A DNA stretch of 51,855 nt. Origin: a bacterium. Its GTDB lineage: Bacteria > UBA9089 > JASEGY01. Below the pieces are notes generated by a model, which searched no databases, was not told where the DNA came from, and saw only the letters and a list, made by a program, of their open reading frames with translations. The translations under genes and the position numbers were made by a program. Location: NCBI GenBank assembly GCA_040753085.1, contig JBFMHI010000007.1, forward strand, positions 1 through 51,855, in the 5' to 3' direction. Of the stretch, positions 14,728 through 50,635 are shown in pieces (positions within the stretch are counted from its first letter, which is position 1; each line of letters opens with the position of its first letter).

Positions 14728-14778
14728 AAAAAACTACCAAGATCATTTTGTGTAAAAAGAATTATTTCATCAATCCTT

Positions 14779-15624: not shown

Positions 15625-15754
15625 CTTGACAGTTAAAAGTTCTCACGGGTTTTCAAGCCTAACCCATTTAGAATAGGACATTTACCTCTAAAGGCGGCTC
15701 GGCTTACAAACACCAACAATACCAATGGGTTACGGAGAACTTTTAGCTGTCGAG
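15625..15754. repeat. 130-bp MITE-like element A, copy 1
   Basis: The ends CTTGACAGTTAAAAGTT and AACTTTTAGCTGTCGAG are near-perfect inverted repeats. The interior (ACCCATTTAGAATAGGACAT and CAAACACCAACAATACCAAT) is almost identical to the copy at 28006-28135, and both are 130 bp long. It lies in the gap between the MNT gene and the transketolase genes. The rest of the gap (15485-15624 and 15755-15780) shows no gene. Confidence 0.75.
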
Positions 15755-15780
15755 TATTTAGGTTACGTGATAATCCCTGT

Positions 15781-18771: not shown

Positions 18772-18828
18772 AATTAGATCCCTCTGTTTTTCTCCGCTAA
18801 CTCAGATAGAATCTCTGAAAGGGGCGCT

Positions 18829-23481: not shown

Positions 23482-23486
23482 TTTAC

Positions 23487-24332
23487 TTACCTCACAATAA
23501 GTAGTTTATAATAGGGTTCTGTATAGCAAAATTGCAGATGCCGTCCATCACGATGAAAAAAGTAGCCGTTTGGCCCTCCTTTTGGATGAGATAATAGGAT
23601 GAGCACCATGCTACAAACTGCATAAGGACTTTGGGTTGGACCTTGATTCATCTCTGTTCTTGCCTCACCGGGATCTAACGCATTCATCTGAATATCTTTT
23701 CCTGGAAAACTATGAGCATATTCTTGTGCCATTGAGTGACAAAGGCTGTTTAGGGCTGCTTTTGATACATTATACATCCCTACACCAGATGTGGATGCCC
23801 AACCAGCCCCAGAAGTTAAAAACAAAACCCTAATACTCCCGCTATTAAGCATATACGGGAAGATTGTTTTGGTTGATAACCATGGTGCAGTAACATTTGT
23901 TGCCATTATCTTATTCCAATATTCTAAAGAATCTTCTTGAAGTGGATTAAGGCTACCAGGCTTGCTGGGTATAGCAGCGCAGTGTACCAAACCATTTAAA
24001 CTACTGCATAGGCTTTTTACTTTATCGCAAGCCCTTAGGATATCATCATAGTTGGTAACATCGCACTTTACTATATGGCAGCTTTCTGTAGTGATACTAA
24101 AAGATGCTATTTCTTCAATAGTTTCCTGTAATTTTTCAATACGCCTGCCTGTCAAAAAAACCTGAGCTCCAGCTGCAGCCAAAGCACAAGCTATACAACG
24201 ACCATAACCTGTTCCTGCACCAGTAATCCAAAAATTTTTCCCATGGAATGAATTCCATCGTTCTAGTGTAAGTCCATAAAGATGTTCATACCATTTTACA
24301 GGATTAACATCTTGACTCACTTGTGTTTTCAT
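23487..24332 (-). CDS. Short-chain dehydrogenase/reductase
   Basis: A classical SDR of about 281 residues. NFWITGAGTGYGRCIACALA is the T-G-x3-G-x-G NAD(P) loop, HCAAIP is near the N-A-A-G position, and GVGMYNVSKAALNSL gives the catalytic Tyr-x3-Lys with a preceding Ser in LFLTSGAGW. NALDPGEARTEMN follows as in the family. The start ATG 24332 is preferred because GGAGGAGG lies just upstream and inside the longer frame. It sits between two TPR-fused enzymes; it probably reduces or oxidises a sugar or acyl intermediate, but no specific substrate can be named. Confidence 0.85.
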   Translation of the reverse strand: MKTQVSQDVNPVKWYEHLYGLTLERWNSFHGKNFWITGAGTGYGRCIACALAAAGAQVFLTGRRIEKLQETIEEIASFSITTESCHIVKCDVTNYDDILRACDKVKSLCSSLNGLVHCAAIPSKPGSLNPLQEDSLEYWNKIMATNVTAPWLSTKTIFPYMLNSGSIRVLFLTSGAGWASTSGVGMYNVSKAALNSLCHSMAQEYAHSFPGKDIQMNALDPGEARTEMNQGPTQSPYAVCSMVLILLSHPKGGPNGYFFHRDGRHLQFCYTEPYYKLLIVR

Positions 24333-24367
24333 CTCCAAAAACCTCCTCCATATCAAGCATCTTTATA

Positions 24368-26143: not shown

Positions 26144-26216
26144 TCAACACCTCAAAATCAGTATTTGCTCAAATGCCAAAAAACAAAGAGAGTAAGCATC
26201 CAAGTTTAATATGAGG

Positions 26217-27908
26217 TTAAGCATAAATATTATAATACCACTCTTTGCAATTAGCACAAAGTGGTAATCTCTTATAGTTCTTATTCTTGTGTATCTGACA
26301 GATGCCTTTTAATCTCTTACTTTCTATGATTTCCTCCAATGCTTGACCTTTAAGATTTCCAAAGCTATACTCTCCATTAAAGTCCTGGCGGCAATGGACT
26401 GCATCTCCGTTCCATAACACAGAAAGGCCTGCTTTCAGTTGCTTGCAGGGAAATCTCTTTAAGGGGGTAACATCTACGACACTTCTATCCTCTATCTGAC
26501 CACAGAAGTTATTGAAATGTCCAATGATAGCATATTCAACTGGTAAGAATTTCTCATAAAGGGTTTCCCATAACTCAACATTTACCCGTGAATCCTTCTG
26601 TTGTACCCCGTTTCGGTAATTAATCATCTTTTTGGCTTTCTCTTGAAAATCCCATCTTTCCATAAATTGTTCAATCTCAGCCTCATTCTCTTTCATTTTA
26701 ACAATTTGAATACCAACTAACGGCTTTCTTGTCCCATAAACCCTGGGAGCATCTTTTAAAAGCTCTCTCTTTAGCTCCAAAAATTTTGTAATATTATATA
26801 CTGCCTTATCAAATAAATCAACTCCTTTTATCTTAGCATAAGTCTCTTTTGTTGCTGCATCTAAACCTAAAATTATATAGTCCAGAAGTCCTTTCTCAAT
26901 AATATCCCTTGAAAATTTTTCATCTAAATTTAGTCCATTCGTCCAGAGGCCAACTTCAAGCCCTTTATCTTTAGCATAAGCAAACATCTCCAAAACATTT
27001 GGATGAAGTAGAGGTTCTCCAAGACCTGAAAAATGTACACTTGAAGCAGATGTTTCGTCTATTATCTTTTTAAAAAGATCAAAATCCATATAGCCAGTTT
27101 CCCGTGTCATCTTTGAAGTTCGAGGGCATATAATACAATTTAGATTACAGTCATTAGTCAATTCAATCTCAATCTGATCACGATGTAAAACCTCGAAGAA
27201 TTCTGGTTCTTCTTCATAAGTTCTTAAAACCTCTTTTGTATCAACTATCTCTCCCTCTTTATAGAACCTATCATAAATTTTTCTCATTAAACTTAGTTGC
27301 TTTGATGAATCAATTGATAGATTAAGATCTAGTTTATTCCAAATATTCTCAGCTTTTACACAATATTTCTTGAATAAAGTTGATGTTTTTGCAAATGAGT
27401 GATGTCCCCCAGTAATTCTCAAGAATATTCCTTTTGGATCAATTTCGCAAAATTTATGCCAAATATCCGCTTTCCATAGCTCTGTTCCTATCCCTTCTGG
27501 AAAGCCTTCTGTCCACATATAATCAATTTCTAATGATTTAATTTTTTCTACCAAAAAATCTACAATTTCCGGATCAATTAAGGGCGAATTAATTGGAATA
27601 AATAGAATATCATTGTCTTCAATTCCTATATTTTTTTGAAACTCAAGCATACTTTCCCATCTATCAGTCTTTATAAAATATAACTTTAACCCATACCTTT
27701 CTGCAAGCTCCAGTGCCTTTTTATCCTCTTCTCCTTCTTTCCAAAGATGTGTATAAGGAATGATATCAGTTATCTTCCTGCCTATCTTCAGTCTATCTAT
27801 TATATGCAAAAGGACAGGCTTTCCTTTCAGGTCTTCCCAGATAAAATTTTGGCAAGGGTTCCCAAATCCACCCACAAAACCAACAAAGATATAGGCTACA
27901 ACCTTCAT
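26217..27908 (-). CDS. Nucleotidyltransferase/radical SAM-SPASM fusion (paralogue 2)
   Basis: About 563 residues with the same architecture as the gene at 1981-3723. Residues 1-~215 are an SpsF-like cytidylyltransferase (GKPVLLHIIDRLKIGRKI, LFIPINSPLIDPEIVDF). TNDCNLNCIICPRTSKMTR near residue 253 is the CX3CX2C SAM cluster motif, SGLGEPLLHPNVLEMF follows, and the end is Cys-rich (FPCKQLKAG, AVHCRQDF, LPLCANCKEWYY) like SPASM. The start ATG 27908 has GGAG close upstream; a start at 28001 would run through intergenic repeat DNA. It is the first gene of the 15781-27908 operon. Confidence 0.8.
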   Translation of the reverse strand: MKVVAYIFVGFVGGFGNPCQNFIWEDLKGKPVLLHIIDRLKIGRKITDIIPYTHLWKEGEEDKKALELAERYGLKLYFIKTDRWESMLEFQKNIGIEDNDILFIPINSPLIDPEIVDFLVEKIKSLEIDYMWTEGFPEGIGTELWKADIWHKFCEIDPKGIFLRITGGHHSFAKTSTLFKKYCVKAENIWNKLDLNLSIDSSKQLSLMRKIYDRFYKEGEIVDTKEVLRTYEEEPEFFEVLHRDQIEIELTNDCNLNCIICPRTSKMTRETGYMDFDLFKKIIDETSASSVHFSGLGEPLLHPNVLEMFAYAKDKGLEVGLWTNGLNLDEKFSRDIIEKGLLDYIILGLDAATKETYAKIKGVDLFDKAVYNITKFLELKRELLKDAPRVYGTRKPLVGIQIVKMKENEAEIEQFMERWDFQEKAKKMINYRNGVQQKDSRVNVELWETLYEKFLPVEYAIIGHFNNFCGQIEDRSVVDVTPLKRFPCKQLKAGLSVLWNGDAVHCRQDFNGEYSFGNLKGQALEEIIESKRLKGICQIHKNKNYKRLPLCANCKEWYYNIYA

Positions 27909-28005
27909 TACTTCTCCTTTTTTAGGTCTATTGTAACTATTCAGTTCTATTTTTGACGGGATGAACAGGATTGACGGGATTAAATTTATCCTGTTCATCA
28001 TAATT

Positions 28006-28135
28006 CTTGACAGTTAAAAGTTATCACGGGTTTTCAAGCCTAACCCATTTAGAATAGGACATTTACCTCTAAAGGTGGCTCGGTTTACAAACACCAACAA
28101 TACCAATGACTTACGAAGAACTTTTAACTGTCGAG
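28006..28135. repeat. 130-bp MITE-like element A, copy 2
   Basis: Same ends and interior as 15625-15754 with a few substitutions; same length. Its right end (…CTGTCGAG at 28135) is exactly the point where the truncated MNT copy begins, so the element is at a recombination breakpoint. Upstream, 27940-28000 contains a partial TAACTATTCAG end and repeated GACGGGAT(T/G) units. Confidence 0.75.
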
Positions 28136-28309
28136 ATAAAGTTTATCCTTCAATCTTCTATCTTTTTGAGGAATTACTATCAATAAATCGTAGTCTGAAT
28201 TGGGCCTGGCAGTTCCCCTTACCTGTGATCCAAAGAGATATATAGTATCAATCTCATCTCTAAAATCCTGAATTCTCTCTAAGAATAAGGCAATAACCTT
28301 ATCGTCCAT
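28136..28309 (-). pseudogene. Truncated MNT antitoxin gene (duplicate of 29915-30229)
   Basis: Residues 1-58 match the N-terminus of the intact MNT gene (LFGSQVRGTARPNSDYDLL, GS...DxD site) with identical DNA over the coding part. The copy ends abruptly at the edge of MITE A copy 2, giving three foreign residues before a stop. The third acidic strand and C-terminus are missing, so it is not expected to be active. The duplication extends upstream through the hairpin element at 28334-28467. Confidence 0.8.
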
Positions 28310-28333
28310 ATCTTGTCTCCTGATTTTCGATGT

Positions 28334-28467
28334 TCAAGTTTTTTTATAATCCCTTGATTTCATTGGGCTTACATTGGACTCAAAAAAGAAGAAGGGTAGC
28401 AGATTAAAATCAAGGGAAATCAGATACTTACGTCGTTTCCCTTCTTTTTGGGACTTCAAAAACTTGA
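28334..28467. repeat. Hairpin element B, copy 1
   Basis: The ends TCAAGTTTTT and AAAAACTTGA are inverted, and inner segments (CCCTTGATTT/AAATCAAGGG and GGACTCAAAAA/CTTTTTGGGAC) also pair, forming a long imperfect hairpin. The copy at 30254-30386 is about 95% identical. It stands just upstream of both MNT copies and was duplicated with them. Confidence 0.6.
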
Positions 28468-28650
28468 TATAATATCTTCTTTTGCTAATATCTTTAATGA
28501 GTCCAAATTGAAGATACTTTCATTTTTTCAGAATTATACCTCATTTTTAAGAAAAAGATAAAGTAAATTTTTTAGTCATGAATAAGAATATTTAACAGTG
28601 ATTTGAACGAGACTTATACGAGACATTACAAGAGTATATTTTGATTATTT
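28468..28650. other. Intergenic, AT-rich, nothing recognised
   Basis: This stretch lies downstream of hicA and upstream of element B. It is AT-rich with no gene, hairpin or repeat that I can support. Confidence 0.4.
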
Positions 28651-28989
28651 TTAGGTCTCTTTATGTCTCTTAAAGTCCCTGTTGATTAATCTTGTGGTTT
28701 CAGGCAATCGGTATATACCACTCTTTACACCTCGTACAATTAGTGTCGATTTCCTTTTTTGAATTTCATTAATCAACTCAAAATATTTTTCTTGAGTCAT
28801 AGCAACAGTTTTCATGTTAGCCTTGATTATAGAAACACTGACTTCTTTATGTTTTGGAATTACCACTGGTCTTTTTGCGCCAGAAAATCGAAAGATTAGA
28901 TGAGATCCCTTTTGTCTTTTAAAAATACACCCAAATCTTTCAAACACTTTTACTTGAGTTTCCCAATTAGTAGGAATCATTCGTTGCAT
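28651..28989 (-). CDS. hicA: HicA-like mRNA interferase toxin with C-terminal extension
   Basis: 112 residues. Residues ~4-70 match HicA/YcfA: VFERFGCIFKRQKGSHLIFR contains the catalytic His (G-S-H), and VVIPKHKEVSVSIIKANMK is the dsRBD-like end. HicA is usually about 60-80 residues; the last ~40 here (ending NRDFKRHKET) are an extension, perhaps run-through. ATG 28989 follows the hicB stop with no gap, and GGAGTG inside hicB serves as ribosome site. A type II toxin-antitoxin pair in reversed (B before A) order. Confidence 0.8.
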   Translation of the reverse strand: MQRMIPTNWETQVKVFERFGCIFKRQKGSHLIFRFSGAKRPVVIPKHKEVSVSIIKANMKTVAMTQEKYFELINEIQKRKSTLIVRGVKSGIYRLPETTRLINRDFKRHKET

Positions 28990-29268
28990 CTAAACACACT
29001 CCAATTTAACAAACGACTTATCGAAACCTATAATTTCTCTTTGAGAGGTTAATATGTCATCTATAATCCTAAAACCTCTCTCTTCTAAAAACTCATTAAG
29101 TGTACCCATTTCCTCCATTTCTTCAAATTGAATCTCTATAACCTCAAAGAGGTTTTTCTTTGCTTCTTCTAAAGAATATCCTTGGGCTATCATATCAAGT
29201 TCTGGACAGTGAATTACATACAATTCACCTTCCCTCCAGAATTCCATAGTAATCTTTAGTTCTTTCAA
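28990..29268 (-). CDS. hicB: HicB-like antitoxin
   Basis: 92 residues. ITMEFWREGELYVIHCPELD and GYSLEEAKKNLFEVIEIQFE form the partial RNase H-like HicB fold. The C-terminus lacks an obvious ribbon-helix-helix or HTH DNA-binding domain, so autoregulation by this short form is uncertain. The start is TTG 29268, nine bases after AGGAGG. It precedes and is coupled to hicA. Confidence 0.8.
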   Translation of the reverse strand: MKELKITMEFWREGELYVIHCPELDMIAQGYSLEEAKKNLFEVIEIQFEEMEEMGTLNEFLEERGFRIIDDILTSQREIIGFDKSFVKLECV

Positions 29269-29568
29269 GGCAAAACACCTCCTTCTTCATCGGGATTTTA
29301 AGAAATCTAACCACAGAATTTTACGAAAATAATATGGGGTCATCCATTGACCAAAATGTCAATAAAAAATACAGTCCTTCCATCTAATAACTTTAAAGCT
29401 TTAAAGGGTCAAGGGTCAGGCCTTAATAATAATAAAATAGATGCAGGATTGTATTCTATCTTTACTTTCGGCCACCTCTTGGATCAACCCGAGATTGCTG
29501 ATTCCAAACTTACATCTTCAATCCGGGAGAATACTTTTGGTCTGAATTTTGCAATCTTTATATAAATC

Positions 29569-29712
29569 TATACTTTTGCACTTTTTTGTAACTACTTGAA
29601 ATACAAATACTTTACAATAACCTCTCGTCATTCCCGCGAAAGCGGGAATCCAGTAATATCAAGGCTTCTGGATTCCTGCTTGCGCAGGAATGACAAAAAG
29701 TGCAAAAGTATA
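29569..29712. repeat. 144-bp inverted-repeat element C with a REP-like core
   Basis: TATACTTTTGCACTTTTT at the left is matched by AAAAAGTGCAAAAGTATA at the right. The core is the widespread palindrome TCATTCCCGCGAAAGCGGGA with its partner CTGCTTGCGCAGGAATGA. ATTTATA flanks both sides (read on the minus strand), a possible 7-bp target duplication overlapping the ends. It is inserted in a HEPN gene. The last bases of the window (51845-51855, TATACTTTTGC) match this end, so another copy may begin there. Confidence 0.7.
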
Positions 29713-29907
29713 AATAAAATATAAGCCGAATAACTGTCTTACTCCTGAATGGCTCTCGGCCTTAACTCCAATACTAAGAAGTAATGCCTGGGCACAATGG
29801 AAGACAGCGTAATATGCTCGAGAGACTGCATCATCATACTTACAGTGGTCCAATAGAATCTTAGCCGCCTCAATCTTACTCCTTGCAGTATTGAGATATC
29901 CTACCAT
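29659..29907 (-). pseudogene. HEPN gene disrupted by element C
   Basis: The N-terminal ~65 residues are a HEPN helix pair (LNTARSKIEAAKILLDHCKY, SRAYYAVFHCAQALLLS). After GLYFI the frame enters repeat C and ends in FALFVIPAQAGIQKP, the well-known translation of that repeat. If the repeat and one ATTTATA are removed, the frame continues as GLYFIYIKIAKFRPKVFSRI and then EDVSLESAISG before a stop. It follows and overlaps or abuts the MNT gene at 29915. Probably inactive, leaving an orphan MNT. ATG 29907 is preferred; TTG 29922 is possible. Confidence 0.65.
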
Positions 29908-29914
29908 AATCTCT

Positions 29915-30229
29915 TTATTCAATCTTTATACCTTCTCTCAAGATATTCTCCATAAATGGAGTGGGAATCTGCGATAAATAATCAAAGTCTTCCCTTTTTA
30001 GGATCTTAAGTGAAATATCCGTTCCCGTTTCGCATAAGATATCAACAACCACATCATAAAGTTTATCCTTCAATCTTCTATCTTTTTGAGGAATTACTAT
30101 CAATAAATCGTAGTCTGAATTGGGCCTGGCAGTTCCCCTTACCTGTGATCCAAAGAGATATATAGTATCAATCTCATCTCTAAAATCCTGAATTCTCTCT
30201 AAGAATAAGGCAATAACCTTATCGTCCAT
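29915..30229 (-). CDS. MNT nucleotidyltransferase antitoxin, intact copy
   Basis: 104 residues. LFGSQVRGTARPNSDYDLLI is the G-S-x-x-R-G-x-A-R-x-x-S-D-x-D motif of minimal nucleotidyltransferases; DISLKILKREDF carries the later strand. AGGAGA lies seven bases before ATG 30229. Its partner HEPN gene is broken by element C, and its first 58 codons are duplicated at 28136-28309. Confidence 0.82.
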   Translation of the reverse strand: MDDKVIALFLERIQDFRDEIDTIYLFGSQVRGTARPNSDYDLLIVIPQKDRRLKDKLYDVVVDILCETGTDISLKILKREDFDYLSQIPTPFMENILREGIKIE

Positions 30230-30495: not shown

Positions 30496-31353
30496 TCATG
30501 ATGATTCCCTCTCAAGAAATTCTTCCACCCTTTTGGCAAACTCATCAAGATCAGCTAAATTTTCGGTTATGGCTTTATAGATAACCTGGTAATCTAAGTT
30601 CCAATAAACATGCACAATAGCATTTCTCATCCCGGCCATACCTTTTATCTTATTGGCAAATGAGTATGGCAAAAGCCCCTTCTCTCCAGATAGCTTTATC
30701 AGGTTAGTAGAGTTATAATCTGTCAAGCTCACACCTGTTACGGCTAAAAAATGCCGGCAAACATCAAGCACTGATTCAAGCGCTATCCGGAGATAATGAA
30801 TACAGAGATCCCTTGTCTCTTCCATAGCCTCAAATTCACTAAAAGAGGAAAATCTACCAGATAGTTTTTTAAGCTTCTTCATTGCTTCTCTAAGTTGAGA
30901 AAGGTAAGTGTGTAATCTTTCTTCGTTTAATTCTCTATGGGACACAGATAAGCCCTCCTTTATGCTAAGTCTAAGATTTTCCAGGTATTCCCTTTTAAAC
31001 TTCTGGTATTCTTCATATTCGAAACAGGTATTGACGCTAAACTTGCTCCAGGTTTTCTCGTTATTTGAGTAAAGTATTCTTCCCTTCAGCAAAGATTCCA
31101 TCTTAATAGCCGGATTCGACCGGTTAAGCACTACCAGGTCTATCTGCCTTGTTTTTAAGATTCGACACAGGTCCTCATAAGTGTTGATATATTTATCGAA
31201 ATCATACTTACTAAAAAGGACAGCGATATCGATATCCTTAGCCTCCTCAGTTTCTAAGATGGAACCAAAGAGAAAGGCTAATTCTATCCGGTTTTGATTA
31301 AAAAGAGGCTCCATTGGCCCTCTTTTTTTCATAACCTCCTCTACGCCTTTCAT
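30496..31353 (-). CDS. Single-chain MNT antitoxin-HepT toxin fusion
   Basis: About 285 residues. Residues ~15-100 are a minimal nucleotidyltransferase: ELAFLFGSILETEEAKDIDI gives G-S-x9-D-x-D, and RQIDLVVLNRS the third acidic strand. Residues ~115-285 are a HEPN/DUF86-like helical domain with RNAIVHVYWNLD, an R-x4-H-x-Y motif identical in pattern to HepT. Two proteins that are normally separate antitoxin and toxin are thus joined. ATG 31353 lies 7 bases after the kpsF stop; TTG 31392 would overlap kpsF. Fusion would fix the 1:1 ratio; regulation by self-AMPylation is inference. Confidence 0.8.
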   Translation of the reverse strand: MKGVEEVMKKRGPMEPLFNQNRIELAFLFGSILETEEAKDIDIAVLFSKYDFDKYINTYEDLCRILKTRQIDLVVLNRSNPAIKMESLLKGRILYSNNEKTWSKFSVNTCFEYEEYQKFKREYLENLRLSIKEGLSVSHRELNEERLHTYLSQLREAMKKLKKLSGRFSSFSEFEAMEETRDLCIHYLRIALESVLDVCRHFLAVTGVSLTDYNSTNLIKLSGEKGLLPYSFANKIKGMAGMRNAIVHVYWNLDYQVIYKAITENLADLDEFAKRVEEFLERESS

Positions 31354-31360
31354 TATCCGC

Positions 31361-32341
31361 CTATCCTTCAAATCGGAATCTTCCTCGGCCAAGTAGATCG
31401 TGAAGATGGATTATTCCGGCCGGTTTTTTCGCCTCATTTACAATGACCAGGGAGGTAATTTCATGCCTTTCCATCATCTCGACCGCCTCCACCGCATACC
31501 TGTCAGACTCAATAGTCTTCGGATTCTTACTCATTACATCCTTCACTCTTTGCTGGTAAAAATCTCTATGCGCCTGCACAATCCGCCTGACATCTCCATC
31601 AGTTATTATTCCTACCAGCCTGTCTTCTTGATTTACCACGGTAGTGAATCCCAATCGCTTCCCGGTTATCTCCAGGAGGGCCTCTTCCATCGTGACGTCT
31701 TCGGAAACCACCGGGATCTGTTCCCCGGTGATCATTATATCCTTCACTTTAAGCATCAATCTTCGGCCCAGACTACCGCCCGGGTGGAGGAAGGCAAAAT
31801 CTTCCCGAGTAAAACCCCGGTTATTCAATAAGGCCACGGCCAGGGCGTCTCCCATTACCAGGGCGGCCGTGGTACTGGCGGTAGGGGCCAATCCCAGTGG
31901 ACAGGCCTCTCTTTTCACACCAACGTCTAAATAAATATCGCTTTCTCTGGCCAGATAGGACCCTTTATCCCCCACCAGAGAGATTATCTTCAGGCCCATC
32001 TTTTTTAGCACCGGCAAAAGAGCATTAATCTCAGCCGTCTCGCCGGAATTAGAGATGGCCACCACCAGGTCTTTACCGCCCACCATACCCAGATCGCCGT
32101 GAATCCCTTCCGCCGGATGTAAAAACATAGCCGGCGTTCCAGTGCTGGCCAAAGTAGAGGCAATCTTCTGACCGATCAAGCCAGATTTACCCATCCCGGT
32201 GACGATTACCTTACCCTGGCAAGCCAAAATAAGCTCTACTGCTTTGACAAAAGACTCATCTATTCGAGGGGCCAGGACCTCCACGGCCTCAGCCTCAATG
32301 CGAATTACCTCTTTGGCCTTCTCAATAATGTCTGCTTTCAT
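31361..32341 (-). CDS. kpsF: Arabinose-5-phosphate isomerase (KpsF/GutQ/KdsD family)
   Basis: 326 residues. A SIS domain (KVIVTGMGKSGLIGQKIAST, then TPAMFLHPAEGIHGDLGMV, and ISNSGETAEINALLPVLKKM) is followed by two CBS domains (VKDIMITGEQIPVVSEDVTM and VKDVMSKNPKTIESDRYAVE). This is the standard architecture of D-arabinose 5-phosphate isomerase, which converts ribulose 5-phosphate for Kdo synthesis and so supports LPS or capsule. Length is normal. It lies between the winged-helix gene (6-base gap) and the MNT-HepT fusion. Confidence 0.92.
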   Translation of the reverse strand: MKADIIEKAKEVIRIEAEAVEVLAPRIDESFVKAVELILACQGKVIVTGMGKSGLIGQKIASTLASTGTPAMFLHPAEGIHGDLGMVGGKDLVVAISNSGETAEINALLPVLKKMGLKIISLVGDKGSYLARESDIYLDVGVKREACPLGLAPTASTTAALVMGDALAVALLNNRGFTREDFAFLHPGGSLGRRLMLKVKDIMITGEQIPVVSEDVTMEEALLEITGKRLGFTTVVNQEDRLVGIITDGDVRRIVQAHRDFYQQRVKDVMSKNPKTIESDRYAVEAVEMMERHEITSLVIVNEAKKPAGIIHLHDLLGRGRFRFEG

Positions 32342-40337: not shown

Positions 40338-40754
40338 TTATGGTTCTATTAATCTCTCCACCTCTCTTACTATCTCTTGAGATTTATCTATTGATTGTTG
40401 GGCATCAGATTCAAAATAGGCCTCTTCAGGAATTAAAGGCCAAGGGAGACCATTGGGATAGCGCGTAGGAATGTAAAACCTATCCAAGAAAATAGCGTCT
40501 TCTCTAAGAGGAAGCAATCTTTTTTTAAATTCAGTAGAGGTTAATCCTTCAATCATCTTCTCTACTGAATGACCCCAGGGTTCTTCATCGAGATAATACC
40601 AGACTGCCTTCAATGCCTTTTCTGCGCTCTGATGAGTAAAGAAACAGGCAGCAGCAAATCTCTTATTTTCGAGCAAAATCTGGGCGGTCTCCAAATCTAA
40701 CCTCGCTTGCCTAAGCCATCTTAAGGCTTCATCTCTCTGGTTTTCTTTGCTCAT
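40338..40754 (-). CDS. HEPN domain protein
   Basis: 138 residues. EALRWLRQARLDLETAQILL then ACFFTHQSAEKALKAVWYYL is the classical HEPN helix bundle. No R-x4-H-x-Y motif is evident, unlike the two HepT-type proteins in this window, so it may belong to the non-nuclease HEPN branch or use another site. It overlaps the upstream MNT gene by 26 bases. Confidence 0.85.
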   Translation of the reverse strand: MSKENQRDEALRWLRQARLDLETAQILLENKRFAAACFFTHQSAEKALKAVWYYLDEEPWGHSVEKMIEGLTSTEFKKRLLPLREDAIFLDRFYIPTRYPNGLPWPLIPEEAYFESDAQQSIDKSQEIVREVERLIEP

Positions 40755-41088
40755 AGATTATCTTTCCTTCTTTGAGTATTCTTTTAATGAAGGGATTATT
40801 ATTTTTAATCATCCGATTAAACTCTTTAGGGGTATAGACAAGAACCTCTATAGGTAGGTTTATACCCTGAGATAGATCCCCCCATAAGGTCTCTGTCCTC
40901 TCTAAGAAGCGTTTCTTTGTCTCTTTTATAAAGATGAGGTCTAAATCGCTCTTCTTACTCTGAGTCTTGCGACTGAAAGAACCAAAGAGAATCACTCTTT
41001 TAACCCTGTGTTTCTGAGCTATCTTGTTAATCTTATCTAAGATCTCTCTCATCAATGACTCAGCCATCATTATATTCTTTAAAGGCAT
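40729..41088 (-). CDS. MNT nucleotidyltransferase partner of the HEPN protein
   Basis: 119 residues. RVILFGSFSRKTQSKKSDLD then LIFIKETKKRFL carries G-S-x9-D-x-D, and INLPIEVLVYTPKEF gives the third acidic strand. ATG 41088 has no close ribosome site; an AGGAGG lies about 22 bases upstream near 41111-41116, an unusual spacing. Leader copy C precedes it. Confidence 0.83.
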   Translation of the reverse strand: MPLKNIMMAESLMREILDKINKIAQKHRVKRVILFGSFSRKTQSKKSDLDLIFIKETKKRFLERTETLWGDLSQGINLPIEVLVYTPKEFNRMIKNNNPFIKRILKEGKIIYEQRKPER

Positions 41089-41616: not shown

Positions 41617-44600
41617 ATGAGACGATGGCCTTATCTTATCTTAATTCTTTTAGTCTGTTTAATCTGGGCAGATAAGGAGGTCTGGGCGGCGGATACCGGG
41701 CCTTATCTTATTAGTCCGGCCGATGCCCATGATACGGTTTCGGCTGTGCCTACCTTTAGCTGGGCTCCGGCGGATACACCCACGACACGCTATCTCTTTC
41801 AGTTAGCTACTGATGTTACCTTTGGGACCGTCAGGCGGAGCGCTGAACTCGATACCTCTACCACTACCTACACCCTCTCTTACAGTGAAACTGATCCCCT
41901 CACCGGAACCTTCTACTGGCGGGTTCTGGCGGATAATGAGGCCAGCACTGAATCCAGACAGATCATTTTTTCATTACCGACGCTTACGGCTCCGGCCGAC
42001 GGGACTAATACCACCAGTCAAATAATCACCTTGATCTGGTCAGAGGTAACTGGCGCTGATACTTACTCTATCGAGATAGACGGCGCCAGCACCCCTTCTC
42101 AAACCATTACTTCGGATACTTATTACGTGGATGCCCCTGCCTTAGATAATGATGTCTATACCTGGCGAATCCAGGCCTATCAAGGAGGGTCGGAGTATAC
42201 TAATTGGAGCGGCAGTTGGACTTTTACCATCCAATCCATTACCCTCCTCTACCCGGCCAACGGAAGTGACACGGCCAGTCAAACCCCAACCTTCCAGTGG
42301 GAGCCGGTAGATGGTCTGGCTACTGATGGTTCGGACAGCTACTGGATTCAGATAGCCCCAAACAACACCTTTGGCTCAATCACCATAGAGGATACCTTCT
42401 CCGCGGCCGCTGCCTATTTTGACACAACTACGGCCTTGAGCGAGGGAACCTACTACTGGCGCGTAAAAGGCATTGATGATAACGATAGCCTTACCACCAA
42501 CTGGAGCGATATCTGGAGTGTCATCATAGACACGGAGGAAGGGGCGCCGGATGTGCCTACCCTCACCGCCCCGTCTGATGAAAGCTGCACTAACAGCGGG
42601 CAACCCCTCTTCCAATGGTCAAACGTGGCTGATGAAGGTTATTACACCATTCAGATCAGCGCTGATGCCACCTTTGCCACGCCGGAGGTAAGTGACACCA
42701 CGACGGCTGATGTCACCGCCTCTACGCCGTCAACTGTTCTGAGTGAAGGCCTCTACTACTGGCGGGTCAGGGCGTATGATGACAGCAACGACGATCTGGT
42801 CAGCAATTGGAGTACTGTCTGGGAGGTAACCATTGATTCCACGGCTCCGTCAGCGCCGAGTTTATCATTACCGGCCAATGGAAGCTGGGTCAACCAGGCC
42901 CAACCTACCTTTTCCTGGACGAATGTGAACGGTCTTACCTACACCCTTCAGATCAGCAGCAGTGATACCGGAGATTTCGACGCCTCTTATCTGGTTTCAC
43001 TGACCGGCAATACCGGACTGACCGGCTCTTCTTATACCTCCACGACTGCCCTGGATGAGAGTGAGACCTACTACTGGCAGCTAATAGCCACTGATTGTGC
43101 CGAGAACACCAACACCTCAACCCTGTGGTGGTTTGGAATAGATACGACGGCCCCGACTATGCCGGCTGATCTCTCGGATACACCTGACGATGGCCAGTAT
43201 TTATCCAGCTCCACCTATTCCTTTGTCTGGAATGCGGCTACTGACACCAGCGATACGATCACTTATGACTTTGAGATCGATACAGAAAGCGGTTTTTCGA
43301 GCCCGCTGACTGCTTCGGCCTATGATCTGACAGTCCTTACTAAAACCCTCACCCTGGCTGATGGCATCTATTACTGGCGGGTCAGGGCCAAGGATGCCGC
43401 CGGGAATGCCAGCTCCTGGATGACCCAGACCGTAACTATCGATACCACCTTCCCCACCGCGCCGGTAGCGGTTTATCCCACTAATGGGAGTTTAATTAAC
43501 GACACCACCCCGCTTTTTGATTGGCAGGATGTAACCGAGCTTAATTTTACCAAATACACTATCGAGGTAGGCACCGGCCCCACCCTGACCAGCCCACTGA
43601 TCGTCGAAGACACCACGTCGCTGACTTCCAGAACAACTTCCGCTTATCAATATACGGGCACGGACATGGTGGATGAAACCACTTATTACTGGCGGATTAC
43701 GGCTATTGACGAGGCCGGCAACACCACCATAGGCTCCATCTGGAACTTTACCCTTGATACCACTGACCCGCCGGATCCTGAAATCCCTTCCTCTCTGGGC
43801 AATCCTACCCTGACCAATGATTCTACGCCGAGTCTGGACTGGAATGATGCCGATACAACCGGCGAGGCAGGAAGCCTTACCTATCGACTTGAAATAGACG
43901 ATGACAGTGACTTTCTCACGCCTGTTCTCACCAGGCTACTTGATGTCTCCAATTACATCCTGACCAGCGCCCTTTCCGATGATCTTTATTACTGGCGGGT
44001 AATTTCTATTGATGCGGCCGGAAACGAAAGCGACGGAAGCATCTTCCAGATGTTGACCATTGATACCCAGCCCCCGGATGAACCACCGGCCCTCATCTGG
44101 CCCCCTCAAGGGCAAGAAACGGTTACTAATGACAATACCCCCACCCTGCAGTGGCAGACCGTAACCGGGGCGGCTGAATATGGCCTTCAGGTGGATAATA
44201 ATCCGGATTATGCCTCGCCCGTCATCGATATCACCGGTTTGGCCGGACAAACCAGCTATACTGTAACCAACCCTCTGGCGGATGGGACTTATTACTGGCG
44301 AATGCGGGCCAGAGATGCTGCCGAAAACTGGACCGGCTGGATTCAGGTCAACTCATCGCCGGGTTCATTCACCATCGACACAACGGCCCCTGATGCGCCG
44401 GCTCTTGTCTCGCCGGATAACTACAGCCAAATCAAAGATCAGACCCCCTTCTTCGATTGGTCGGAGGTGACCGATACCGACGATATAACCGACACGATTT
44501 ATTACATCATCCAGGTGGATACCGGGCCGAGCTTTGGTTCGGCCATTATGTTCAGCAATGATCCGACAGATACACCTTATTATTACCCCGGTCTCTTCAC

Positions 44601-47600
44601 CGGCTCCAGTTGTATCTTTACTTTCCTGGGTGAAGGAACTTACTACTGGCGGGTAGCGGCCAGAGATGAGGCGGATAATACCAGCACCTGGAGCGAGACC
44701 CGGCAATTTGTGCTCGACATTACGCCCCCGTCAGCCCCCAGCCTTGTCTCTCCCGATGACGACAGCTACCTGTCTAATAATAAGCCGACTTTTGATTGGT
44801 CTGATGTGACCGGGGCCACTTACACCCTCCAGGTAGACGATAACCGTGATTTTTCTTCGCCGGAGCTTAATGTAAGCGGATTGTCTCTCTCCAGTTACAC
44901 CCCGGCGACTCCTCTAAGCGATGGGCAATATTACTGGCGGGTCAGGGCGTATGAGTTAGCCACCAATCAAACGGCCTGGAGCACTGAAACCTTTGAATTT
45001 GTAGTCGATACTCTGCCCTCGGATGGCGAGGCCTTTCCTATTCTTCTAACCCCGAAGGATAAGACGGTCATAAATACTCAACGTCCCACCTTTGAATGGA
45101 AGGCAGTGGCTGATCCGTCTCAGGTTACCTATCAGATCCAGGTGGCCAAGACCTCGGGTTTCCATAACCTTGAGATAGATAATAGCGAAGATACCAGGAC
45201 CTACCACCCGGCTGATACAGACTTAGACGAAGGGACCCATTACTGGCGGGTAATCGCCACTGATGCCGCCAGCAATAAGAGCCATACCAGCACCGCCTTC
45301 AGCTTTACCGTGGATATTACCGCCCCTGATACACCCGCCCTGATCTCCCCGACCACGGGAAGCTCTGTCAGCGACGTTACGCCGGCCTTTGACTGGGCGG
45401 ATGCCCTGGGGGCTTCATCTTATGTTATTGAAATAGACCGGGATAATGATTTTTACTCGCCGCTCTTAAGCGTTACGGTGACCGCCTCTGCTTATACCCC
45501 TGGTCTCGAGTTAGAGAATGGGCGGACCTATTACTGGCGGGTCAATGCCATCGACCAGGCCGGAAATGAAAGCGGCTTCTCTAACACCTGGAGTGTGGCC
45601 ATCAGCTCCACTTATATTAACCGCGTTAATGGGGAGATAAGAGAATATGCGGTGACCGGTGAGGAAACCTGGCGGGCGAAAAATAGCCCCATTATTGTGG
45701 AAGACAATTTGGTCATCAACCAAGATGCCCATCTGACCATTGAGCCAGGGGTGGTAATAAAATTTGAATCCGGTTCAGACCTCAGCCTTACGGTTAAGGG
45801 GAGACTGACGGCCGCAGGGACTTCCAGCAGTCGGATAACCTTCACCTCCAACGCCTCTTCTCCGGCCGTCTGCGATTGGCGCGGCATTATCTTTACGGAT
45901 GAGAGCAGTGATTCATCCATCTTGAGCTACTGTGACATCTACTATGCCGGTTCCAGTGATACCTTAAAGAAAGATAACCTCGAAATTCGGTCAGCCTCGC
46001 CCACTATTAGTTATTGTCGAATATCTAAAGGCTGCGGCTATGGGATCTATGTCCAGGGTGATTCCCATCCTAATATCATTGGATGTGAGGTTACCGATAA
46101 TGAATCAAGCGGGATACTCTTTGAGGTCCCCAGCGGAACTCTGACCGTAACTAACTGCACCATCAGCTCTAATGATGGATGGGGCCTTGAAAATCTGGGC
46201 GATTCACTGATCGGGAATACCACTGATCTGTCTGTCTCTGGATGCACTATCTCCGCCAATGCCTCAGGCGGAATTTACACCACCGCCTCATCTTCTGAAA
46301 CCATAGTGGATAATCAGATCAAAGACAATCTGGGCTGGGCCGTGGTTAAAGGCAAACACAGCCTGGCTGCCTATATCGGCGGTTATGTGATCAAGGATAA
46401 TAACGTATCTAGCAATAACCACAATGGCATTTACCTGACTGAACCCAAACACAGCTTGAATACTACCTGGTATAAAAATTGGAATAACTTTAAAGACATC
46501 CCCGTGCCCATCTACTTTGAGTGGGTGACGGTTGACAGCGGCGTGACTTTAACCATTGACTCCGGCGTGGTGGTCAAGATCAATACGAAACTGACCATTC
46601 AGGGAACACTAAAGGCCAATGGAACCGGCACCAGCCAAAGGGAAGGGATTATCTTTACCTCCTATCGGGATGATGATGCCGGCGGAGATACCAACCATGA
46701 TGGAGACACGGATGGTCAAAAGGGAGATTGGGATTTCGTCCAGATGAATAACGCCTCGAATAGCTCTATTCTGACCTACTGCACCCTTCGTTATTCCAAA
46801 TACGGGCTGGAACTGAACGGCACCTCGCCCACCATTCAAAATTCCATCTTCGAACAAAACACCTACCGGGCGATTGCCTGCCGGAATGGTTCATCTCCGG
46901 CCATCACCGGCAATATCTTTTGCAGCAACGACGGGTTTGACCCCCATTCTCTGGAGGGAGGGGTCGTTACCACCTTTGGGTATGATGCGGCTAAGCCTAC
47001 TATTAGCAACAACCAATTCATTAATAATAGCCACAATTACCCCATCCTCATCACGGCCGATAATGCCGGCCGGATAAGCGGCAATACCATGCAGGGCAAC
47101 ACCTACAATGCCATCCGGATTCAGGAAGTCACGGCCGATGCCGGAGTAGATACTGATGTGGCTTGGGTGGAAACAGCCGTTCCCTTCCTTTTAGCTGAAG
47201 GAACCAGGGTGGGCGCAAGGGCATCTGCCGCCTTATCGGCTCCCAAACTGGAGATCGGCTCCGGCGTGATCATCAAGACTATTGGCGCTATTGAGATAAA
47301 TACGGGCTCCTTTACGGCTGATGGGGCCACTTTTACTTCATATCTGGATGATTCGGCCGGAGGAGACACCAACAACGATGATAATGCCACCACACCGGCG
47401 GCTAACGATTGGAGAGGCCTCCTCTTTTCTAAATACAGCCTGGCTTCTTCCCTTCAGGATTGCACCATCCGGTATGCCAACACCGGGATAGGACTCACCT
47501 CGGCTTCTCCGACCATCACCCGGTGCATCATTTCAAATTCCAGAAAGGGAATTGAATGCCTCCAGGGCAGCTCGCCAACTATCAGCGATTGCACCATAAA

Positions 47601-49308
47601 CAGCAACTATCAGGGGATAGCCGCGGCTTCCTCTTCCGCCCCTTCCATTGCTAATTGTGAGATAACAGACAACTCGAATTATGGGATCATTAATTCCGAC
47701 ATCTCGGTAACTATCCTGGCTGAGAATAACTGGTGGGGTGATTCTTCCGGCCCCGAAGACGGGTCATCTCTTGGCCTCTACAATCCGGAGGGGAAAGGCA
47801 ATCGGGTGAGCGATTTTGTAGATTATCTCCCCTGGCGGGGAACAGGCTTAACCCCCGTAGCCGATGCCGGCCAGGATCAGACGGTTTACCTGGGAAGCAT
47901 GGTCATCCTTGACGGTGGGGGAAGTTACAACCCTGGTGGAGGATCGCTTACCTATAGCTGGACGCAAAATCCAGATAATCCGGCCTCATTTACCCTGTCT
48001 CAAACCAGGGAAGTTAGTTTTACGCCTGCCGTTATCGGAGATTATGAATTTCAACTGACGGTCAATAATGGCGCCCAATCCAGTGTGGCGGATGAGATAA
48101 CCGTACATGTATTGTCTCCGGATACAACCGCTGCCCTGCACCTTAATCCTGCCTCCTACCAGGTGGCGCCGGGAGATGTTTTTACCCTGGCGGTCGAAGT
48201 AGGGGATTCGACCTATCCGGTGGGTGACCTCTTTGGCCTCTCCTTTAGCCTCAATTTTACCCCGGCCAATTACCTGGAGGTCACTTCGGTCAGCATAGGC
48301 GATTTCCTGGGCATGGATTCTGACAAACTGGTTTTTGATTACGAGGTGGATCGGGATAGGGGACAGGTGGAGGTGGGCGTCAGCCGGAAGGCCTCCTACT
48401 TTACGGGCGGGGCAAATGGATACGGGGTGGTAGTCGGCCTAAGCTTTCAGTTGTCAGACAATGCCGCCTATCAGGAAACAGTAAGCCTCAGTTTCAGCAA
48501 TATCTCGGCCAGACACTATGACGGCACCGAATTTGGCCTCTCCGTGCAGGGGGGACAGATTACGGTCGGCACAGTTACCGGTGTGACCAGCCTCTATGTC
48601 TGGCCAGGAGATACTAACAATGATGGTTATGTGGACGCCAAGGATGTCCTGCCTATTGGCTACTATTGGCATTACAAGGGTGATACCCGTCCGGCGGCCA
48701 GCACCTTATGGACTGCCCAGGAAGCGTATGCCTGGTCAACCTCGGCAGCTACTTGCGCTGACGCCAATGGAGACGGGGAAGTTAATGCCTCTGATGTGCT
48801 GATCATCGGACTTAACTGGCACAAGAGTCACCAGAGTGGATCAGCGGCGCCATTGCAGGCGGCCAATGATTCCCTCGACTACTCTCAGTATTTAGACGCC
48901 TATCGGGCTATTTACCAGGCCCTGGAAGATGCCCCGGTCGGGTCGGCCACTTCAGAAATCAAGGAGTTCTTAACCTCGATCATCCAAATCGGGATAGCCC
49001 AACATGTCCCGGCCGTGCCTCTTTTAGGTCAAAATTATCCTAATCCGGTAAATCCTGAGACCTGGCTCCCCTACGTCCTTCCTGGAGCAGCCGCCGTTGA
49101 GATCAGGATTTACAGCCTGAGCGGCCAGTTGATGCGCACACTCAGCCTGGGAGAGATTGAGGCTGGTTCTTATCTAACCAAAGACCGGGCCGCTTATTGG
49201 GACGGCAAAGACGAATCCGGCCGGCCAGTGGCCTCCGGCACCTACCTTTACCAGCTTAAAACCGGAGATTGGCGCTTAACCCGGCGGATGATTGTCCTTA
49301 ATCAGTGA
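41617..49308 (+). CDS. Giant secreted protein: Ig/FnIII-like repeats, beta-helix, PKD, cohesin, dockerin, FlgD/T9SS-like end
   Basis: 2563 residues. A Sec signal (RRWPYLILILLVCLIWA) is followed by about 13 repeats of ~100 residues to residue ~1330, each with a W-S/Y-Y-W-R-V-x-A motif and linked by I-D-T-T-x-P-x-A-P. Residues ~1335-2070 form a parallel beta-helix made of three similar modules (SGVVIKF-type starts, P-T-I-S-x-C turns). A PKD-like domain (PVADAGQDQTVYLGS) lies at ~2078-2166, a cohesin domain at ~2169-2325, and a dockerin at ~2328-2405 with two Ca-binding loops (DTNNDGYVDAKD, DANGDGEVNASD). The end (QNYPNPVNPETWLPYVLP, ASGTYLYQLKTGDW) resembles FlgD/T9SS sorting domains. Predicted adhesin or scaffold; self-pairing is inference. 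Confidence 0.9.
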   Translation: MRRWPYLILILLVCLIWADKEVWAADTGPYLISPADAHDTVSAVPTFSWAPADTPTTRYLFQLATDVTFGTVRRSAELDTSTTTYTLSYSETDPLTGTFYWRVLADNEASTESRQIIFSLPTLTAPADGTNTTSQIITLIWSEVTGADTYSIEIDGASTPSQTITSDTYYVDAPALDNDVYTWRIQAYQGGSEYTNWSGSWTFTIQSITLLYPANGSDTASQTPTFQWEPVDGLATDGSDSYWIQIAPNNTFGSITIEDTFSAAAAYFDTTTALSEGTYYWRVKGIDDNDSLTTNWSDIWSVIIDTEEGAPDVPTLTAPSDESCTNSGQPLFQWSNVADEGYYTIQISADATFATPEVSDTTTADVTASTPSTVLSEGLYYWRVRAYDDSNDDLVSNWSTVWEVTIDSTAPSAPSLSLPANGSWVNQAQPTFSWTNVNGLTYTLQISSSDTGDFDASYLVSLTGNTGLTGSSYTSTTALDESETYYWQLIATDCAENTNTSTLWWFGIDTTAPTMPADLSDTPDDGQYLSSSTYSFVWNAATDTSDTITYDFEIDTESGFSSPLTASAYDLTVLTKTLTLADGIYYWRVRAKDAAGNASSWMTQTVTIDTTFPTAPVAVYPTNGSLINDTTPLFDWQDVTELNFTKYTIEVGTGPTLTSPLIVEDTTSLTSRTTSAYQYTGTDMVDETTYYWRITAIDEAGNTTIGSIWNFTLDTTDPPDPEIPSSLGNPTLTNDSTPSLDWNDADTTGEAGSLTYRLEIDDDSDFLTPVLTRLLDVSNYILTSALSDDLYYWRVISIDAAGNESDGSIFQMLTIDTQPPDEPPALIWPPQGQETVTNDNTPTLQWQTVTGAAEYGLQVDNNPDYASPVIDITGLAGQTSYTVTNPLADGTYYWRMRARDAAENWTGWIQVNSSPGSFTIDTTAPDAPALVSPDNYSQIKDQTPFFDWSEVTDTDDITDTIYYIIQVDTGPSFGSAIMFSNDPTDTPYYYPGLFTGSSCIFTFLGEGTYYWRVAARDEADNTSTWSETRQFVLDITPPSAPSLVSPDDDSYLSNNKPTFDWSDVTGATYTLQVDDNRDFSSPELNVSGLSLSSYTPATPLSDGQYYWRVRAYELATNQTAWSTETFEFVVDTLPSDGEAFPILLTPKDKTVINTQRPTFEWKAVADPSQVTYQIQVAKTSGFHNLEIDNSEDTRTYHPADTDLDEGTHYWRVIATDAASNKSHTSTAFSFTVDITAPDTPALISPTTGSSVSDVTPAFDWADALGASSYVIEIDRDNDFYSPLLSVTVTASAYTPGLELENGRTYYWRVNAIDQAGNESGFSNTWSVAISSTYINRVNGEIREYAVTGEETWRAKNSPIIVEDNLVINQDAHLTIEPGVVIKFESGSDLSLTVKGRLTAAGTSSSRITFTSNASSPAVCDWRGIIFTDESSDSSILSYCDIYYAGSSDTLKKDNLEIRSASPTISYCRISKGCGYGIYVQGDSHPNIIGCEVTDNESSGILFEVPSGTLTVTNCTISSNDGWGLENLGDSLIGNTTDLSVSGCTISANASGGIYTTASSSETIVDNQIKDNLGWAVVKGKHSLAAYIGGYVIKDNNVSSNNHNGIYLTEPKHSLNTTWYKNWNNFKDIPVPIYFEWVTVDSGVTLTIDSGVVVKINTKLTIQGTLKANGTGTSQREGIIFTSYRDDDAGGDTNHDGDTDGQKGDWDFVQMNNASNSSILTYCTLRYSKYGLELNGTSPTIQNSIFEQNTYRAIACRNGSSPAITGNIFCSNDGFDPHSLEGGVVTTFGYDAAKPTISNNQFINNSHNYPILITADNAGRISGNTMQGNTYNAIRIQEVTADAGVDTDVAWVETAVPFLLAEGTRVGARASAALSAPKLEIGSGVIIKTIGAIEINTGSFTADGATFTSYLDDSAGGDTNNDDNATTPAANDWRGLLFSKYSLASSLQDCTIRYANTGIGLTSASPTITRCIISNSRKGIECLQGSSPTISDCTINSNYQGIAAASSSAPSIANCEITDNSNYGIINSDISVTILAENNWWGDSSGPEDGSSLGLYNPEGKGNRVSDFVDYLPWRGTGLTPVADAGQDQTVYLGSMVILDGGGSYNPGGGSLTYSWTQNPDNPASFTLSQTREVSFTPAVIGDYEFQLTVNNGAQSSVADEITVHVLSPDTTAALHLNPASYQVAPGDVFTLAVEVGDSTYPVGDLFGLSFSLNFTPANYLEVTSVSIGDFLGMDSDKLVFDYEVDRDRGQVEVGVSRKASYFTGGANGYGVVVGLSFQLSDNAAYQETVSLSFSNISARHYDGTEFGLSVQGGQITVGTVTGVTSLYVWPGDTNNDGYVDAKDVLPIGYYWHYKGDTRPAASTLWTAQEAYAWSTSAATCADANGDGEVNASDVLIIGLNWHKSHQSGSAAPLQAANDSLDYSQYLDAYRAIYQALEDAPVGSATSEIKEFLTSIIQIGIAQHVPAVPLLGQNYPNPVNPETWLPYVLPGAAAVEIRIYSLSGQLMRTLSLGEIEAGSYLTKDRAAYWDGKDESGRPVASGTYLYQLKTGDWRLTRRMIVLNQ

Positions 49309-50224: not shown

Positions 50225-50251
50225 TAAGAAACGATGACTGAGGTGCCAAAT

Positions 50252-50635
50252 ATGGGGAAGGTAATCGAAAAGGTCAAAATTACGAATTTGCTTGAGACGA
50301 TGAAGTCCATTGAGATCGATGCCGTCATTGATACTGGCGCCACGATGGTTGTGTTACCTCACAATATCGTGAAGGAACTTGGATTGAAGAAGATTCGGGA
50401 AGTAAAGGTCAAATATGCAAACAACAGCACAGAATCAAAATCAATATATGGTGTAGTAACTATAGAAATTAAAGGACGAACTGGTAACTTCGATGTGTTG
50501 GCAGAGGCGGAAGGCTCACCGCCTCTCATAGGACAAGTAGCTTTAAAGGTATTAGACCTGGTAGTTGACCCAAGGACAAGAATCCTCATGCCGAATCCCC
50601 AATCTCCGGAGATGCCAATGGTGGAGATATTATGA
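50252..50635 (+). CDS. Retropepsin-like aspartyl protease
   Basis: About 127 residues. EIDAVIDTGATMVVLPHNIV carries the catalytic D-T-G-A motif, and YANNSTESKSIYGVVTIEI with PPLIGQVALKVLDLVVDP complete a single-domain retropepsin fold (clan AA, active as a dimer). Such small proteases are common in uncultivated bacteria, often near toxin-antitoxin genes; substrate unknown. ATG 50252 is preferred, with GAGGTG eight bases upstream; ATG 50234 is possible. It stands alone after the repeat cluster. Confidence 0.8.
   Translation: MGKVIEKVKITNLLETMKSIEIDAVIDTGATMVVLPHNIVKELGLKKIREVKVKYANNSTESKSIYGVVTIEIKGRTGNFDVLAEAEGSPPLIGQVALKVLDLVVDPRTRILMPNPQSPEMPMVEIL

Follow-up and report, generated by a model that had tools for sequence, protein, structure and literature searches.

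The stretch of DNA analysed here, called the window, comprises 51,855 nucleotides of contig JBFMHI010000007.1 (assembly GCA_040753085.1) from a bacterium of the GTDB lineage UBA9089, JASEGY01. It holds a genuine long open reading frame (41617-49308, forward strand) for a protein of 2563 amino acids (aa), in which a signal-like N-terminus is followed by immunoglobulin (Ig)/fibronectin type III (FnIII)-like repeats, a beta-helix, a PKD domain, a cohesin, a dockerin, a helical linker and a C-terminal domain (CTD) of the type found in FlgD and in cargo of the type IX secretion system (T9SS) (Table 1). The sequence-only reading of this DNA had described a giant with about 13 Ig/FnIII-like repeats, a beta-helix, PKD, cohesin and dockerin domains and a FlgD/T9SS-like end, and matches to Pfam and NCBIfam models bear it out, together with a motif count that gives 13 copies of an aromatic-x-W-R/Q strand in the repeats. 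The Pfam and NCBIfam scans recognised no catalytic domain in the protein. The cohesin, dockerin and CTD together form an ending, here called the cassette, which recurs in the same order on proteins with unrelated heads, and it is this cassette and its candidate binding partners that are considered below.

Table 1. Features of the giant gene; positions refer to the window.
Feature	Residues	Positions	Strand	Basis and remarks
Whole gene, putative giant surface protein, 2563 aa		41617..49308	+	ATG start; stop codon included in coordinates
Predicted Sec-type signal peptide, MRRWPYLILILLVCLIWADKEVWA	1-24	41617..41688	+	Hydrophobic; sequence judged by eye
13 Ig/FnIII-like repeats	~26-1330	41692..45606	+	Pfam Big_13, Ig_Rha78A_N; 13 motif copies
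Right-handed parallel beta-helix region	~1345-2075	45649..47841	+	Pfam Beta_helix (3 stretches), NosD (4); TIGR03804 (5); outer limits by eye
PKD domain	2084-2165	47866..48111	+	Pfam K319L-like_PKD, 44.3 bits
Cohesin	2172-2318	48130..48570	+	Pfam; AlphaFold2 fold; profile matches to solved scaffoldins
Type I dockerin with W..Q..W insert (~20 residues) between loops	2324-2407	48586..48837	+	Pfam; profile matches to solved dockerins
Dockerin calcium loop 1, DTNNDGYVDAKD	2332-2343	48610..48645	+	12 residues, intact
Dockerin calcium loop 2, DANGDGEVNASD	2382-2393	48760..48795	+	12 residues, intact
Helical linker, dockerin to CTD		48838..49026	+	Two helices, H251-266 and H272-292 of the 392-residue AlphaFold2 model
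T9SS/FlgD-type CTD, NYPNPVNPETWLPY...	2473-2563	49033..49305	+	TIGR04183, FlgD_ig

The cohesin is the weakest domain call of the protein. In the whole-protein scan the Pfam model PF00963 gave 23.5 bits, slightly short of its 24.1-bit cut-off, and in a search of the genome 30.8 bits, which exceeds it. The AlphaFold2 (AF2) model of the cohesin (model residues 1-153) superposes on 4uyp_C with Z 17.8 and a root-mean-square deviation of 1.9 over 141 residues. Among the structure matches of the modelled tail, 49 of 50 rows are titled cohesin or scaffoldin and one is 3kcp (C. thermocellum multimodular components); in the Foldseek list, ScpA occupies rows 49 and 50. The VIA-align matches of the tail all fall on the cohesin part (model residues 1-151) and barely probe the dockerin and the CTD. 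A 12-row cohesin profile built in this work matches six distinct solved sequences, all of them scaffoldins. A chance match to an Ig or PKD fold was considered and rejected, the cohesin profile matching the protein only once despite its 13 Ig repeats and PKD domain. Most cohesins of the set analysed were also detected independently by PF00963, two lipoprotein-like ones discussed below scoring under its cut-off. Of 29 cassettes, 28 retain the cohesin strand end S-R, which may lie at the dockerin face, and 24 retain S-R-K.

The dockerin (PF00404, Dockerin_1, residues 2330-2397) scored 30.3 bits against a cut-off of 22.9 in the whole-protein scan and 38 bits in the genome search. Both domains are thus recognised by hidden Markov models, on which the sequence-only reading had staked them. 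With the dockerin profile, the 16 best of 134 matches to solved sequences are dockerin-bearing proteins, such as 2y3n_B and 4fl4_A, and lower matches among the best 60 include many EF-hand proteins such as calmodulin. The two intact calcium loops claimed earlier are present: in DTNNDGYVDAKD and DANGDGEVNASD, both of 12 residues, the D/N ligands at positions 1, 3, 5 and 12 are in place. In a 12-row alignment drawn from two phyla these ligand columns are invariant at positions 1, 3, 5 and 12 of loop 1 and at 1, 3 and 5 of loop 2, where position 12 is D or E. The AF2 tail model places a helix after each loop (H170-178 and H220-235).

An inventory of cohesin and dockerin proteins in this genome (G000; 3.05 Mb, 250 contigs, 97% complete), a check that the sequence-only reading had proposed, gave 23 dockerin matches, 19 above cut-off, and 24 cohesin matches, 20 above cut-off, together with the lipoprotein-like cohesin proteins described below. 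By profiles built in this work, 13 proteins, including that of the window, have a cohesin, a linker of 11-18 residues, a dockerin, a helical linker and a CTD in that order, and in three further proteins the cohesin lies 282-341 residues ahead of the dockerin. An 878-aa protein (contig C5) and a 1284-aa protein (contig C8) have the order cohesin-dockerin-cohesin-CTD, and a 1316-aa neighbour on C8, whose dockerin is under the cut-off, has a similar appearance. The heads of the cassette proteins are unrelated to one another: Ig/beta-helix/PKD stalks, FG-GAP with Ig repeats (4051 aa), a subtilase S8 (1168 aa), a GDSL lipase with a GH20b domain (1487 aa) and He_PIG repeats (530 and 812 aa). Because the heads differ, the cassette looks like a portable C-terminal unit. 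The window cohesin pairs in the cohesin tree with that of a 2647-aa frame in a sister species (G011, contig C83). A one-off fusion or misassembly was rejected, since there are 13 such tandem cassettes in this genome, 11 in the sister species and five in three related genomes, with all of their cohesins in one clade. A side observation concerns a 471-aa protein (L104:3665-5077, contig C116), unlisted by the dockerin search, in which two cohesins flank a cysteine-rich dockerin-like loop pair, DCNRDCYINYDD .. DCPADDYVDYRD, recognised by eye; it is perhaps a cohesin-(degenerate dockerin)-cohesin-CTD protein.

The CTD of the window protein matches TIGR04183, the T9SS type A sorting domain, with 29.5 bits against a cut-off of 23 (residues 2474-2560) and FlgD_ig with 33.5 bits against 27; the Pfam sorting-domain models Por_Secre_tail (14.9) and CHU_C (15.7) are under their cut-offs of 27. 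There are 50 matches to this CTD in the genome, of which 25, itself included, share at least 54% identity over most of the domain. The genome also has 18 matches to the PorV family, 12 of them above cut-off, and a SprA-like protein of 2486 aa that matches TIGR04189 in four stretches (175 bits against a cut-off of 200, E 1.4e-51). To judge from these similarities, a type-IX-type export route for the giant is probable, with the SprA-like and PorV-family proteins as candidate components. A 2447-aa frame (L080:11660-19000) contains seven FlgD-like domains resembling the CTD, of which six are internal, and this Ig-like fold may thus be used also as a repeat.

Five proteins of this genome have a single C-terminal cohesin, no dockerin and a lipoprotein-like signal (..LFGC, ..LTGC, ..LVGC and similar, judged by eye). 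Two of their genes, on contigs C77 and C41, immediately follow a cassette gene in the same orientation, and on C41 four cassette genes, a lipoprotein-like cohesin gene and a CTD-only frame stand in a row on one strand. The cohesins of these two were called by our iterated profile (83.4 and 83.9 bits); the other three are above the Pfam cut-off in the genome search. In the sister species, where eight regions were chosen, at least five lipoprotein-like cohesin proteins were found, one of them encoded behind a cassette gene, and all five cohesins are above the Pfam cut-off. In a 100-row maximum-likelihood tree of cohesins, in which columns are few, branches long and some forks unsettled, and from which two stretches under 85 residues among the 82 cis cohesins were left out, the 29 cassette cohesins form one clade (support 99/95), and nine of the ten lipoprotein cohesins of the two species stand beside it in a 38-row group (94/92). 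The cohesins of multi-cohesin FnIII giants (contigs C8 and C20) branch away from those of the cassettes. The loci on C41 (L098:5429-8801) and C77 (L102:1425-4147) hold two very similar pairs, each a cohesin-dockerin-CTD gene followed by a lipoprotein-like cohesin gene, as if the pair had recently been duplicated.

At E <= 1e-4 the searches detected both cohesins and dockerins in 15 of 19 genomes of the phylum and neither in the other four. A survey of all 83 dockerins of these 19 genomes, in which many frames stop where the fetched sequence stops and neighbours are therefore undercounted, found a cohesin no more than 60 residues away on the same frame for 66 (31 before, 21 after and 14 on both sides; 15 of 19 for this genome alone). 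Of the remaining 17, nine have a more distant cohesin in the fetched frame, and for eight that frame shows no cohesin at all. A CTD lies downstream of the dockerin in 69 of the 83. The cohesin-dockerin-cohesin arrangement on one chain was also seen in other families of the phylum (L284, G005:C115; L280, G007:C324; L300, G003:C9; L289, G013:C194; L311, G014:C1).

Outside the phylum, a scan of named genomes for relatives, considered here for the best 80 of 557 and possibly omitting records very near the window, gave 78 loci labelled Poribacteria, one labelled Rhodothermaceae and one Chloroflexi. In all six Poribacteria proteins scanned with Pfam, Cohesin, Dockerin_1 and FlgD_ig are above cut-off in that order, with leucine-rich-repeat heads, and in 28 of the 29 Poribacteria frames whose CTD has a cohesin nearby a dockerin lies in between (six by Pfam, the others by eye; L186 lacks it). 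The giants of L111, L112, L119 and L136 combine the cassette with leucine-rich repeats and cytochrome-c-like matches, PSCyt1 being above cut-off in L112, L119 and L136 and just under it in L111. The same CTD family occurs on L135 and L187, the contigs labelled Rhodothermaceae and Chloroflexi bacterium, which are possibly mis-binned Poribacteria contigs or the result of transfer.

These distributions bear on the view that the cohesin- and dockerin-like domains are merely structural, calcium-stabilised spacers of an exported stalk that bind nothing. The absence of a recognised catalytic domain from the window protein fits such a role, as does the W..Q..W insert of its dockerin, which is missing from the Poribacteria rows. 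The calcium-ligand columns are, however, invariant save for one D/E position, the two domains co-occur in the same 15 of 19 genomes, free-standing lipoprotein-like cohesins exist, and the cohesin strand end that may face the dockerin is conserved; we consider this view very improbable.

The shared ending and the cohesin-only lipoprotein-like proteins suggest a cellulosome-like way of building the cell surface. The giant would be a stalk or adhesin-like protein of the cell surface that starts out with a Sec signal peptide and leaves the cell by a T9SS-type outer-membrane route, which recognises the CTD and perhaps removes it upon export. Its calcium-loaded dockerin would then most likely dock in trans, the target being a related subtype of cohesin on a lipoprotein-like protein that serves as membrane anchor or on another exported cassette protein, and the giant's own cohesin would offer the next socket. 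To this exported plug-and-socket module, with docking in trans onto lipoprotein or neighbouring cohesins as read from domain content and gene context, we assign a probability of roughly 0.5. The sequence-only reading had left the choice between self-assembly of the giant and binding to another cohesin protein; the latter now has concrete candidates in the lipoprotein-like proteins, two of them encoded beside cassette genes, and the fibre has no direct support.

Several observations weigh against docking in trans on such anchors. Lipoprotein status was judged by eye, and one of the five lipoboxes in this genome, that of L091_2902 (..FPSGC), is atypical. The two cohesins encoded next to cassette genes, on C77 and C41, score 17.2 and 20.2 bits, short of the Pfam cut-off of 24.1, and that of a 707-aa protein, with 36.1 bits in the genome search, is yet unlisted in the whole-protein scan. 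The window gene itself adjoins no cohesin-only gene. On the side of export, the SprA-like protein is under its curated cut-off and gives 15.9 bits against 27 with Pfam SprA_N, and no Peptidase_C25 (PorU-type) match was found in the genome by a search that was silent in control genomes too. The co-occurrence of cohesins and dockerins in 15 of 19 genomes has a chance of 1 in 3876 if relatedness is ignored, a figure that overstates the case, since these are not 19 independent cases and the four genomes with neither domain come from three families and rank among the smaller. Our odds for the plug-and-socket module are unchanged by the two cohesins under the cut-off, because these are balanced by the five above it in the sister species.

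The short linker and the frequent neighbour on the same chain suit pairing in cis equally well. The dockerin might bind the cohesin 11-18 residues upstream of it, so that calcium locks the two into a rigid base under the stalk and beside the export domain, with no role in assembly. The linker is not only short but alike in the 13 tandem cassettes, a cis cohesin stands within 60 residues of 66 of the 83 dockerins surveyed in the phylum (on both sides of 14), and the same domain order recurs in Poribacteria. The distances among cohesins and among dockerins correlate beyond what the CTD accounts for (partial r 0.44; none of 2000 permutations as high). Since such a correlation is also expected from the linkage of neighbouring domains, which tempers it as support for docking in trans, it shows that the two domains travel together and leaves cis and trans pairing unseparated. 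The AF2 models, with predicted TM-scores (pTM) of 0.52 for the 392-residue tail and 0.61 for the 243-residue cohesin-dockerin pair, give no confident packing of the domains against each other, and demonstrate neither a pair in cis nor a particular interface. By our own estimate, 0.61 is about the value of one well-placed 150-residue domain in 243 residues, or of two domains not placed relative to each other, and so supports no fixed packing. The alignments behind these models, drawn from 99 candidates, consisted of the window and 63 rows for the tail and of the window and 27 rows for the pair (28 in all, and shallow); the added rows are Poribacteria, except for one Rhodothermaceae and one Chloroflexi row in the tail alignment. 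Pairing in cis is further disfavoured by the 17 dockerins with no cohesin within 60 residues, eight of them with none in the fetched frame, frames that are often cut, and by the lipoprotein cohesins of the neighbouring branch, which would lose their obvious partner. A closed pair of this kind seems to us unlikely, though worth keeping in mind.

If docking does occur in trans, identical or related giants might link into a calcium-dependent surface fibre with a lipoprotein cohesin as its seed. Each cassette contributes a single cohesin and a single dockerin, the cohesins fall in one clade, and there are many paralogues as well as lipoprotein-like cohesins that could act as seeds. Direct support is lacking, and with both domains at the C-terminus the polymer would be a cohesin-dockerin backbone from which heads of 2000 residues hang, rather than a fibre of stalks; we hold such a fibre to be improbable. 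A mixed backbone is a speculative extension of the plug-and-socket module, one that we would sooner expect to fail than to hold: most dockerin-bearing giants exported by the T9SS would bring a plug and a socket of their own, and lipid-anchored single cohesins might seed extendable, calcium-dependent chains of differing T9SS-exported giants, displaying stalks, peptidases and esterases by means of a duplicating C-terminal cassette present in at least two phyla.

With the clostridial cellulosome (types I and II) the proteins described here share the cohesin fold, the dockerin with two calcium loops and membrane-associated cohesins, here as candidate anchors. They differ in that cohesin and dockerin are adjacent on one chain at its C-terminus, in the non-catalytic stalk that forms the head of the window protein, in the single-cohesin, lipoprotein-like nature of the candidate anchors, and in a dockerin whose loops are set about 20 residues further apart. 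A dockerin-bearing catalytic subunit, one mark of a cellulosome, is not seen in the window protein, and two cassette paralogues carry an S8 peptidase or a GDSL lipase. As for a multi-cohesin scaffoldin, another such mark, the FnIII giants on C8 and C20 have several cohesins, which lie outside the cassette clade. The end of the chain is here a T9SS-type CTD, whereas S-layer homology (SLH) or sortase anchors are named for the cellulosome in the accessible text of one report (PMC9012536).

Two systems outside the clostridia are closer in some respects. In the Cloacimonadota, 'Ca. Stygibacter', likewise of an uncultivated lineage, is described as having a cellulosome-like complex of dockerin-bearing exported enzymes and a scaffoldin with a CTD; dockerins and cohesins are there on separate proteins, and the accessible text mentions neither a cohesin-dockerin-CTD cassette nor lipoprotein cohesins (PMC8542988). 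Anaerobic methanotrophic (ANME) archaea, which are not cellulose degraders, have a dockerin and multiple cohesins (up to 5) on one chain, for which surface attachment has been proposed. There the context is archaeal, with an S-layer, and several cohesins take the place of the one-to-one C-terminal cassette; the text seen mentions no T9SS CTD (PMC9012536). The Poribacteria giants share the order cohesin-dockerin-linker-CTD and a NYPNPFNPETWIPY-type CTD with the window protein and differ in their leucine-rich-repeat heads, four of the six scanned having cytochrome-c-like matches, in a dockerin without the W..Q..W insert, and in an identity of about 30% over the cassette. A literature search that left subscription papers mostly outside its reach found no earlier description of the cohesin-dockerin-CTD cassette with lipoprotein cohesins, and no publication on dockerins in Poribacteria. 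The elements are already known; their combination is a variant, for which priority is not claimed.

Cargo of the T9SS in Bacteroidota is retained by covalent attachment to lipopolysaccharide, and the cassette raises the question whether such cargo may be retained by a protein plug instead. The parts concerned are small enough to be expressed, a cohesin-dockerin unit of about 240 residues and a lipoprotein-like cohesin protein of 270 residues, and with them one could examine whether cohesin-dockerin pairs outside cellulosomes build the surfaces of uncultivated bacterial cells. Chains, if they form, would make a supramolecular display system of natural origin, every block of which serves as plug and socket at once.

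The difference in base composition between the giant gene and the AT-rich region upstream, to which the sequence-only reading had drawn attention, holds locally. The gene has 52.4% guanine plus cytosine (GC) and the stretch at 14-30 kb 36.1%; other fetched stretches of the genome average 48.7% (431 kb, partly overlapping and biased towards genes like the giant). The gene is thus not singled out, the AT-rich stretch being the outlier, and a foreign origin by composition was rejected, since the gene is nearer to the genome sample than is the AT-rich stretch. The latter (14000-30000, 36% GC) carries genes of the radical SAM/SPASM, TPR-methyltransferase, split transketolase and Schlafen AlbA_2 kinds. 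Shortly before the giant gene (40338-41088, reverse strand) a HEPN-domain gene (138 aa) overlaps a Pol-beta nucleotidyltransferase gene (119 aa), a putative toxin-antitoxin pair of the HepT/MntA type. A 298-aa frame at 30496-31392 (reverse strand) joins a Pol-beta nucleotidyltransferase (31-112) to a HepT-like domain (168-289) and resembles a fusion of such a pair. Downstream of the giant, a 133-aa frame (50234-50635, forward strand) matches retropepsin-like aspartyl proteases, with 35.3 bits to gag-asp_proteas and 34.4 bits to Asp_protease_2, both above cut-off.

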